A model generated the notes under the pieces. It was not told the DNA's origin. It did no database searches and saw only the letters and a list, made by a program, of their open reading frames with translations. Positions 34,226-55,761 of a stretch of 56,843 bases of DNA are shown here, in pieces. Each line of letters begins with the position of its first letter. The stretch's first letter is position 1. Both the position numbers and the translations under genes were made by a program. Source of the DNA: Bacteroidales bacterium (GTDB taxonomy: Bacteria; Bacteroidota; Bacteroidia; Bacteroidales; UBA12170). The stretch covers positions 1-56,843 of the forward strand of contig JAGGUP010000117.1 of NCBI GenBank assembly GCA_021158405.1. Direction: 5' to 3'.

Positions 34226-34256
34226 TTTGTGTTTTATGTAAAATTTCCTATATTTG
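34226..34256 (+). promoter_or_regulatory. Promoter TTTG-N19-TATATTTG
   Basis: TTTG at 34226-34229 and TATATTTG at 34249-34256, with a 19-bp spacer, are a full match to the Bacteroidota -33/-7 pattern. Transcription would start near 34260 and produce a leader of about 320 nt that includes the whole 163-bp palindrome before the SprB-repeat gene at 34584. Confidence 0.6.
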
Positions 34257-34366
34257 GTTGGTATTTAAGTATTACTTTCACATTACTATCGGGGAGAAAA
34301 AAGTTATTTTAAAATATAAAGCTGTTTTTTTATTTGGGAGATAGAAAAACCGACAGCATTATTGAT

Positions 34367-34529
34367 GAACTTGTTTAAAGTAAAACAGCAAAACTGCGAG
34401 CGAACCCTTGGTGCCATTGACTTCAGCTATTTTTGATTCCGTAGCTAAGGCTATGCAATAAAAAATGAGATTCGTCACTGGACACCAATGGTTTACTCTC
34501 GAAATCACGCTTTAACTTTAAACAAGTTC
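34367..34529. repeat. 163-bp imperfect palindrome (MITE- or REP-like hairpin element)
   Basis: The ends are exact inverted repeats GAACTTGTTTAAAGT/ACTTTAAACAAGTTC (34367-34381 with 34515-34529). The complementarity continues imperfectly inward for about 60 bp: TTGGTG near 34409 with CACCAA near 34484, then ATTTTT with AAAAAT. It closes in a central hairpin TAGC-TAAG-GCTA (34442-34453). The symmetry centre and the loop coincide, so the whole element folds into one long hairpin. There is no transposase and no coding frame. No second copy is seen in this window. Confidence 0.65.
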
Positions 34530-34583
34530 GATTAGATCAAATAGTGAAGATTCTGATTTTATCAAAATTGTAAACTAATTCTT

Positions 34584-36137
34584 ATGACAAAACGAGTTAT
34601 TAATTTTGGTTCAGTACTAATTCTCTCCATGGCTTTTTGGTCATTAAGCCAATTTTCTTTTGCTCAATCCGTTCAAAAAATGAAATGTGAGGCAATTATT
34701 AGCGACGCAAATGATTTCCTTATTATCAATCAAACAATAGGCATGCGTTTAAGCGTTCGGCAAGGCTCATTAAATGGAAGAGCGGTCTATGTTGAAACTA
34801 TTAATCCAACAACGCAACCCGATGGCTCGGTCGAAATTAGGATTGGAAACGGGCGAGTAGAGTCTGGAAAATATGAGGATATTGACTGGATAAATGGAAC
34901 GTATTTTGTTACTACAGAAACTGATTTAACGGGAGGAAAAAGATATAAAGGCACTGGCATGTGTAAATTATTACAAGATAAGAAATTGATAAATAAATCG
35001 GAAGTATTCCCGAGTAACAGCAAAAATGTTGCAATAGATCCCGTTGATGAAGTAGTAAAAGAGTCCGTTCCTGAAAAACATGTGCCTATCAAGCGTAAGT
35101 TGATAATCAACCATGAAATTGGCTATGTAAGTTGCTATGGGGAAAAGGATGGATCTATTGATGTTACGATTGACGGAGAAGCACCTCCTTATCAGTTTTT
35201 ATGGAATACCGGTGATGAAACAGAAGATTTGATAGATGTTTCTGCAGGAACTTATGCCTTAACTGTTGAAGATAGTGAAGGCAATAAAAGCTCCGAAGAA
35301 TTCCTAGTAGAAGAACCTCCCGTATTGACTTGTTCCGGAATTTCTATCAATGAAACGGAGGATAGAAATGATGGAAAAGTAATGCTTTCTGTGGATGGCG
35401 GCTCAGGTATGTATAGTTATAAATGGAGCAATGGTGCGATATCTCTAAATTTATCAGGTTTGTCTGGCGGAGATTATTCAGTTACAGTTACCGATTTGAG
35501 TGATTGCACTTGTACCACAACAGTAACTGTAAACAGTGACATGTATTTCAAAGCAGACCTTAAAAATGCGTCTTGCTTTGGTGCTTCCGATGGTGCGATA
35601 AATCTCATCGTTGGGGGAGGTGTTGCTCCATATTCTGCTTTTTGGGACAAAGGCTCTTTTACACAAAGTTTAAGCGATTTGGGAGCTGGGATTTATTCTG
35701 TTAAAGTGATTGATGCTAATGGAACAATAAAAGATGGAGATTTTACCATTACAGAACCCGAAGCAATTATTATCTCCGATAGTATAAGGCCAAGTACCGG
35801 CATGGATGGAAGTATTGATATTACAGTAAGTGGAGGCCGGCCTCCCTATTCATTTTTATGGAGTACAGGTGCTGTAACAGAAGATATAGACCATTTGTCT
35901 GGAGGGAATTATGTGATAACTGTTACTGATTCTAATCAGTGTAGTGTGCAGAAATCTATACTTGTGCTCGGACCTTCTAATATTCAGGAAAAAGTTGTTC
36001 ATAATACGTACTATTCGGATACATTGGGTTCTATTTCGCTGGAGGTAAAGAATTTAATCTATAAGGGGAATATAAATTTATTCTCGGCAATTAATATTAA
36101 CGCAGACAAAATAGTTTTAAAGAATGAAGAAAAATGA
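34584..36137 (+). CDS. Secreted SprB-repeat protein
   Basis: This 517-residue protein has a signal peptide (about 1-28, ending SFAQ), then an unfamiliar N-terminal domain of about 135 residues. Four SprB-type repeats follow (about 168-465), each with the pattern NxxCxGxxDGSIxVxVxGGxxPYxFxWSTGxxTxxLxxLSxGxYxVTVTDxxGC. Clear examples are CYGEKDGSIDVTIDGEAPPY, CFGASDGAINLIVGGGVAPY and MDGSIDITVSGGRPPY. SprB repeats occur in surface proteins of Bacteroidota, including the gliding adhesin SprB, and are often type IX secreted. The tail after the repeats (about 466-517) is not a classical type IX C-terminal domain. The gene lies between two palindromic elements and has a long structured leader. Confidence 0.82.
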   Translation: MTKRVINFGSVLILSMAFWSLSQFSFAQSVQKMKCEAIISDANDFLIINQTIGMRLSVRQGSLNGRAVYVETINPTTQPDGSVEIRIGNGRVESGKYEDIDWINGTYFVTTETDLTGGKRYKGTGMCKLLQDKKLINKSEVFPSNSKNVAIDPVDEVVKESVPEKHVPIKRKLIINHEIGYVSCYGEKDGSIDVTIDGEAPPYQFLWNTGDETEDLIDVSAGTYALTVEDSEGNKSSEEFLVEEPPVLTCSGISINETEDRNDGKVMLSVDGGSGMYSYKWSNGAISLNLSGLSGGDYSVTVTDLSDCTCTTTVTVNSDMYFKADLKNASCFGASDGAINLIVGGGVAPYSAFWDKGSFTQSLSDLGAGIYSVKVIDANGTIKDGDFTITEPEAIIISDSIRPSTGMDGSIDITVSGGRPPYSFLWSTGAVTEDIDHLSGGNYVITVTDSNQCSVQKSILVLGPSNIQEKVVHNTYYSDTLGSISLEVKNLIYKGNINLFSAININADKIVLKNEEK

Positions 36138-36240: not shown

Positions 36241-36255
36241 AGCGAAATTGATTTT

Positions 36256-36395
36256 GAGAACTTTGCAGGATGATAGATTTTGATTCAAATCGAGGCAAAA
36301 TCAGATAAAAAACCACAGTTTACTTCCGTAAATGAGGATTTTGAAGAAGATTTTAACGAAGAGTTGGATCAAGAAATGAGTTTTGCAAAGCTCTC
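36256..36395. repeat. 140-bp full-length hairpin element, copy 1
   Basis: Terminal inverted repeats GAGAACTTTGCA/TGCAAAGCTCTC (one mismatch) bound a 140-bp element. Its exact centre is the hairpin TTTAC-TTCC-GTAAA (36319-36332). Between them the arms pair imperfectly along most of their length, for example AAAATC/GATTTT and GATTCAA/TTGGATC. The flanks carry a possible 5-bp direct repeat ATTTT (36251-36255 and 36396-36400). A second copy of identical length is at 55476-55615, with about 14 base differences by eye (about 90% identity). It encodes no protein and no transposase. Confidence 0.8.
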
Positions 36396-36448
36396 ATTTT
36401 CTGATTTAAGCGTTTGTGGATAATAAATTTCTGAATGTGCTGAAGAAT

Positions 36449-36715: not shown

Positions 36716-36788
36716 TCGGAGTGACAAGACTTGAACTTGCGACCCCTTGACCCCCAGTCAAGTACGCTACCAACTGCGCTACACCCCG
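36716..36788 (-). tRNA. tRNA-Pro (anticodon GGG)
   Basis: On the minus strand a 73-nt cloverleaf is complete. The acceptor stem is CGGGGTG/CACTCCG with one G-T pair, the D arm GCGCAGTTGGTAGCGT, and the anticodon stem CTTGA/TCAAG with loop CTGGGGG (anticodon GGG). The T arm GTTCAAGTC lies inside AAGTTCAAGTCTT. The discriminator base is A and CCA is not encoded. It reads CCC and CCU codons. A TAAATTTG -7 element lies upstream and a terminator downstream, so it is a single-gene unit. Confidence 0.95.
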
Positions 36789-55419: not shown

Positions 55420-55475
55420 TTTATACTTTTAGTTTTCTTATAGCTACTTTTTTAAAGAGAAATATTTCATTGAGT

Positions 55476-55615
55476 GAGAGCTTTGCAAGACGAAAGATTT
55501 TGATTCAGATTGAGGCAAAATCAGATGAAAAACCATAGTTTACTAATGTAAATGAGGATTTTGAAGAAGATTTTAACGAAGAGTTAGATCAAAAAATGAA
55601 TTTTGCAAAGCTCTC
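55476..55615. repeat. 140-bp full-length hairpin element, copy 2
   Basis: Terminal inverted repeats are perfect here: GAGAGCTTTGCA/TGCAAAGCTCTC. The exact centre is TTTAC-TAAT-GTAAA (55539-55552). Compared with copy 1 the loop differs in three of four bases while the closing stem is unchanged. The flanks TGAGT and TGATT are similar but not identical. The region 55616-55761 after it is the leader of the next gene, with nothing else recognised. The element sits in the 342-bp gap behind engB. Confidence 0.8.
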
Positions 55616-55761
55616 TGATTATAAAATTAATATATTTGAGCTCCGCAAGCAATAGGAGTAGGTTGAGTAATCAACTTTAAATTATTGTTATATAAATAGT
55701 TATATATTTATTGAAATTAAAGTCATTGATCACTAAATAGAAACGAAAGAAAAACACATCT

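Follow-up and report, generated by a model that had tools for sequence, protein, structure and literature searches.

The stretch of DNA analysed here, 56,843 nucleotides of a Bacteroidales draft genome and referred to below as the window, carries at 34584-36137 on the plus strand a gene for a 517-residue surface protein. Domain matches confirm that this protein contains SprB repeats, as a preliminary description of the same DNA had proposed; it also matches Por_Secre_tail, barely over the cut-off. Upstream of the gene lies an imperfect palindrome of 163 bp (34367-34529), which is overlapped by no open reading frame of 100 or more residues in the ORF list of the window. The geometry given for it beforehand is exact. 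Its 15-bp ends are perfect inverted repeats (GAACTTGTTTAAAGT/ACTTTAAACAAGTTC), the left at 34367-34381 on the plus strand and the right at 34515-34529 on the minus strand; a TAGC-TAAG-GCTA hairpin stands on the symmetry centre at 34442-34453; and 54 bp separate the palindrome from the ATG at 34584. The central hairpin belongs to a 20-nucleotide core, TGCATAGCCTTAGCTACGGA (34438-34457, minus strand), that is common to many differently-ended elements, and the palindrome is bounded by a 3-bp target duplication, GAT, at 34364-34366 and 34530-34532. Two promoter-like sites, both identified by consensus match only, are found on the plus strand: TTTG-N19-TATATTTG at 34226-34256, upstream of the palindrome, and TTG-N17-TATTTTTG at 34408-34435, within it and directed towards the SprB gene, the latter match being not above chance. 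The predicted RNA fold of the palindrome (-58.6 kcal/mol, z -7.9) is far beyond chance, with none of 200 shuffles as stable; folded as DNA it gives a z of -6.3 (0 of 200 shuffles).

The palindrome is not confined to this locus. The source draft genome (2.94 Mb in 187 contigs, 96% complete) holds 13 copies with 95-100% identity, 11 of them full length and two cut by contig ends, and the sequence beyond the ends varies between copies. Perfect 3-bp target duplications border all ten copies for which both flanks are readable (at least 3 nucleotides on each side), the duplicated triplets being GAT, AAT, TAT, AAA, ATT, ATA, ATT, ACT, GAT and ATT; the eleventh full-length copy has a left flank of only 2 nucleotides and is consistent with a TAT duplication. 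Identical flanking triplets are the signature of a transposon cutting with a 3-bp stagger. Of the three possibilities raised in the preliminary description (a second mobile hairpin family, a regulatory leader or a separate small RNA), it is therefore the first that proves right: the 163-bp palindrome is a MITE, a dispersed mobile element and no unique leader.

Every MITE feature that was looked for is present in the palindrome except an empty site, which was sought via cyclase orthologues in 11 genomes of the genus. The SprB gene lies beside the cyclase gene in none of the 10 other genus genomes, some of whose contigs leave little flank, and the flanking region is non-syntenic in all of them, only the left flank being alignable and that in a single genome, G004. 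Because the SprB gene does not adjoin the cyclase gene in these relatives, an empty site is not demonstrable for the copy at 34367-34529. Relatives of the palindrome family occur in one of the 10 (G008). No match to the element was found in the plasmid and phage collections, and viral contigs gave one core match. Several draft contigs end within or at the middle of palindromes (C15:83-99 and C27:81-97 of G262; C31, C95 and C150 of G000), and short-read assemblies seem to break at the hairpin centre of such palindromes.

Which transposase could move such an element? Elements with ends GAAGTTGTTTAAAGTT and the same core are found in Saccharicrinis aurantiacus HQYD1 (G255) and in a Prolixibacteraceae MAG (G262), the loci that combine these ends and the core including L167 and L186. 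G262 also carries an insertion sequence of 891 bp (L263) that has GAAGTTGTTTAAAGTT ends and a TTC duplication and encodes an IS5-family transposase, with matches to PF13340 and PF13359 and to NF033580 above its cut-off; in G255 an end of the GAAGTTGTTTAAAGTT type directly adjoins the C-terminal portion of a related transposase, with 62% identity. In G367, a single-contig genome, four related transposase genes reside in elements of 927-929 bp whose ends, GAAGTGATTTAAACTT/GAACTCATTTAAACTT, match the MITE ends of that genome. Three of these four copies have 3-bp duplications, the fourth having recognisable ends and no duplication, and two of the transposases were scanned and score 109.7, just below the NF033580 cut-off of 110.

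The source genome contains one decayed IS5 transposase fragment, corresponding to residues 137-233 (E 3e-14) and interrupted by stop codons, which runs straight into GAGCTTGTTTAATGT, identical to the MITE end at 13 of 15 positions. A protein search of the draft returned this fragment and no intact matching IS5 transposase, and there are no PF13340 matches in it. Searching the source genome by exact ends for an autonomous copy yielded solo ends on contigs C57 and C53 with no transposase adjoining, and no ORF recurs near the cores of 113 loci beyond small clusters of two to three ORFs. The matching ends give a good likelihood that the helper of the MITE is of IS5 type. As the source genome has no intact matching transposase, its own helper stays inferred and appears to be dead or unassembled; an intact transposase in the same genome is no defining feature of a non-autonomous element.

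A single copy of this kind is ordinary, but the superfamily behind it is not. The central 20 nucleotides, or a variant of the middle 18 with one or two bases changed, recur in three further repeats of the source genome; in two of these, inverted ends of different sequence can be recognised. With at most one mismatch allowed, the core is present in 6 of 247 genomes of the order, where a reversed control pattern gave no match, and at most of these loci it lies mid-element, in about 160 bp of sequence with inverted ends. Exact cores were found in at least 112 stretches of named genomes, the taxa among the matches listed being Flavobacteriaceae, Saprospiraceae, Prolixibacteraceae, Bacteroidales, Chlorobiota and Gammaproteobacteria/Comamonadaceae MAGs. 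The core was the search key in these scans, so that its invariance there is by construction.

The matches listed include 94 cores outside the Gammaproteobacteria/Comamonadaceae, of which 13 were dropped for too little flank and 81 analysed. Among these Bacteroidota/Chlorobiota cores, 67 of 81 have inverted ends (at least 12/16), 53 of the 67 inverted-end elements are 159-168 bp long, and simple clustering, again among the matches listed, gives 41 end types, or about 40, some being the same family offset by one or two bases. When small shifts of the ends are allowed, 3-bp duplications are found for 35 of the 67, against 11.4 in shuffled flanks (maximum 20 in 500 shuffles); with the automatic ends left unshifted the figures are 7 of 67 and 1.8. 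Exact 3-bp duplications are not universal across the superfamily. In Gammaproteobacteria the same 20-nucleotide core is found in dispersed repeats of a different build (L170, L172, L175, L196, L197 and related loci), which begin with a CTAGCCCG-type end and have the core about 80 bp in; some of them show CGGGATAG about 55 bp past the core.

A covariance model was based on 53 sequences, drawn from the 81 non-redundant core loci with Gammaproteobacteria omitted and at least 45 of 70 mirrored positions required to be foldable. Conservation across these 53 Bacteroidota elements is seen in the core and in paired T/A tracts at ±35-41, and the other arm positions vary yet pair. At 35 named pairs, 82.4% of cells pair, a percentage biased upward by the selection for foldable arms, compared with 47-55% when the partner is slid, a control that the selection affects less; the covariation score for the same pairs is 0.509, compared with 0.165-0.257. 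The palindrome arms thus covary across the superfamily. With eight candidates scored per genome, the model finds members in at least 8 of 395 genomes of the phylum. Its matches in seven other genomes, 25 among the loci returned, keep the motif GCATAGC-N2-5-GCTAYGG in 17 cases and the exact 20-mer in one, implying that the core drifts slowly; such matches to arms and core together give a less biased figure for core conservation than do the core-keyed scans. In G367 all eight listed model matches are on the plus strand, and in G462 and G490 the strands are mixed, 5:3 in each.

In some elements the centre differs or is missing. The G008 copies keep the ends and arms of the palindrome family and have another tip hairpin, and L264, in G262, has CCCGAGTTTCGGGA at the tip position. 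Three same-ended elements, L250, L258 and L259, are without the core. Since L250, an element of 105 bp, has these ends and a 3-bp duplication, movement may not require the core, unless L250 lost it by a later deletion. L258:2506-2746 (241 bp) and L259:2488-2700 (213 bp), both in G262, have GAACTTGTTTAAAGTT ends and other, short mid-element hairpins such as CCCGAGcactCGGG. Two closely similar palindromic repeats of about 143 bp are also present in the window, at 36255-36397 and 55475-55617, with ends TGAGARCTTTGCA / TTGCAAAGCTCTC; they are probably what the preliminary description called its 140-bp element, for which it gave no coordinates. Its statement that the palindrome does not share the sequence of that element is true only in part, as the superfamily model also scores both repeats, at 30-32 bits (E about 1e-3 and 3e-4), and on this model evidence they are probably a distant relative with another centre.

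What does the insertion mean for the SprB gene? The upstream site had been described as a strong promoter. The motif is indeed there, but its strength is not established, because motif matches in the window are not above chance: TTTG-N19-TATATTTG matches once in 57 kb, with 0.29 expected and at least one match in 28 of 100 shuffles, and the looser TTG-N17-23-TAnnTTTG matches 17 times in the window against 14.6 expected. One congener, G004, retains the -7 part of the site, TATATTTGG. The leader of the SprB gene is probably changed by the insertion and, because the element sits between the promoter-like site and the start codon, transcription from the upstream promoter, if that promoter is used, would plausibly give an mRNA led by the hairpin. 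The hairpin in such an mRNA would probably be a consequence of the insertion, a putative by-product rather than a demonstrated function.

The converse reading, in which the palindrome acts on the SprB gene as a cis-regulatory leader, or as a small RNA in its own right, and controls expression through the long hairpin, is very improbable. It would account for the position upstream of the ATG and downstream of a consensus promoter-like site, the very stable predicted RNA fold and the second promoter-like motif inside the palindrome, and in the available part of PMC3733652 transcription is reported for MITEs close to genes, along with effects on the stability of mRNA. It is at odds, however, with the dispersal of the palindrome at 13 places, with the absence of the SprB gene from beside the cyclase gene in all 10 relatives, and with promoter motifs that are no commoner than chance. 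Nor does any Rfam 15 family match the element at gathering score; there are weak chance matches around it, and the sole match at that score in the whole window is a tRNA at 36716-36788. Relatives of the palindrome show no preferred gene context or orientation. At 71 Bacteroidota/Chlorobiota loci with usable flanks, as judged by a simple longest-ORF gene caller and with loci dropped where the core lies less than 300 bp from an end, the neighbouring genes are tandem in 38 cases, divergent in 21 and convergent in 12, compared with 144, 65 and 36 for background intergenic regions. None of the 71 copies lies inside an ORF of 150 or more residues, and the tandem copies are divided equally, 19 of 38 running with the gene direction and 19 against it. 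These background-like contexts and the 19:19 orientation imply a tolerated passenger and not a strand-specific RNA device. The dispersed copies, the contexts and the lack of an Rfam match lead us to reject this as the main reading, and the regulatory-leader and small-RNA options are both left unsupported.

Least credible of all is the reading that the element is a palindrome of REP or REPIN type, mobilised in single-stranded form by a tyrosine transposase of the IS200/IS605 or RAYT kind. A central imperfect hairpin with a fixed mismatch, palindromic form and intergenic location are all in keeping with it, and the source genome has five Y1_Tnp matches; yet no core, with up to five mismatches allowed, is found in five loci around the Y1 genes, the 3-bp target duplications (10 of 10) and 15-bp inverted ends are marks of DDE transposons, and the ends match those of IS5-family transposons. 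The RAYT/REP reading was rejected on the target duplications and the lack of a core near Y1 loci. A more serious competitor, although still an unlikely one, holds that the shared centre does not reflect common descent of whole elements; a tiny independent hairpin unit would instead have made its way, or been copied, time and again into the middle of unrelated MITEs. It would explain why the same 20-nucleotide core is found with about 40 end types and in the differently built repeats of Gammaproteobacteria MAGs, and why tips are exchanged on retained arms in the G008 copies and L264. Against it, the core is central, at about ±80, in most Bacteroidota elements, whose length is near-constant, and the T/A tracts at ±35-41 are conserved too; moreover, the relatives found with arms and core, which keep GCATAGC-N2-5-GCTAYGG in most cases and the exact 20-mer hardly at all, look like the outcome of gradual drift.

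We conclude that the locus is very probably best explained by a MITE with an IS5-type helper acting in trans, belonging to a Bacteroidota superfamily and leaving a leader hairpin as a by-product. On this explanation a 163-bp non-coding element with inverted ends was inserted here, duplicating GAT, as the 13 near-identical copies, the sharp ends and the target duplications show. The matching ends point to mobilisation in trans, the probable helper being an IS5-family transposase with a 3-bp staggered cut and specificity for GAAcTTGTTTAAAGT-type ends. An intact transposase of this kind exists in other Bacteroidota, the decayed relic alone being seen in the source draft genome. The element belongs to a large Bacteroidota superfamily of palindromes of about 160 bp with a common central hairpin, built to a plan of a GCATAGC-loop-GCTAYGG centre, a T/A-tract pair about 38 bp to either side, variable arms that pair, and family-specific ends. 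It landed between the promoter-like site and the SprB start codon, with the leader hairpin as a probable by-product.

In its terminal inverted repeats and 3-bp duplication the element agrees with IS5-family insertion sequences (NF033580 / PF13340 + PF13359) and their MITEs, as represented by the 891-929 bp elements of G262 and G367. It differs in its centre, since L263, the one matched full-length insertion sequence that was read through, is without the core hairpin, and the MITE interior is no simple deletion product of L263. Palindromic bacterial MITEs such as ERIC, NEMIS/Correia, RUP, Nezha and EFAR are foldable elements of 70-300 bp with inverted ends, often adjacent to genes and present in many copies, each family having, as far as is known, its own ends. 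The palindrome resembles them in size range, inverted ends, foldability, proximity to genes and multiple copies; unlike them, it belongs to a set in which a single central hairpin and a single length are found again and again in combination with about 40 end types. This constant centre and length, combined with many kinds of end, is a departure from described bacterial MITEs. We know of no target duplication in the GTAG/CGTC-tagged REP class, from which the 3-bp duplications and IS5-type ends seen here set the element apart. The REPs of that class and their RAYTs are treated in the available part of PMC3733652, where the REPs are likewise small imperfect hairpins in intergenic positions and where most of the palindromic MITE families named above are listed.

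Among Bacteroidota, MITECca01 of Cardinium is similarly a non-coding, high-copy, short inverted-repeat element; as described in the accessible text of PMC9769881, it is derived from IS982, about 240 bp long and mobilised by its parental insertion sequence. It differs in being known from a single lineage, in its IS982 ends and in its retention of parental sequence, and no core common to differently-ended elements is reported in that text. We recognised no description of the core or superfamily in the portions consulted of the open-licence literature, including PMC9769881, PMC3733652, PMC5771137 and PMC4853749, by which we do not imply its absence from print; a GCATAGC match in the text seen of PMC4853749 proved to be a primer.

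The conserved centre raises the question of what the hairpin is for. We suggest, tentatively and at somewhat less than even odds, that a single hairpin heart with a constant layout (a central GCATAGC-loop-GCTAYGG that includes a conserved G-G mismatch, T/A tracts near ±38 and a total of about 160 bp) persists over Bacteroidota, Chlorobiota and perhaps Gammaproteobacteria, its ends having been repeatedly exchanged or re-adapted to different transposases, so that the element is a general hitch-hiker on many transposons and the heart itself is needed. If so, the heart might be required, for example, to form a cruciform that brings the ends together or to serve as a binding site for a host factor. 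The usual view of MITEs is that they are what deletion has left of a single parental transposon, and each family would therefore die with its parent. One heart with about 40 kinds of end suggests instead a non-coding passenger that switches transposase and so survives the loss of its helpers, and the covariance model allows such elements to be annotated across the Bacteroidota.
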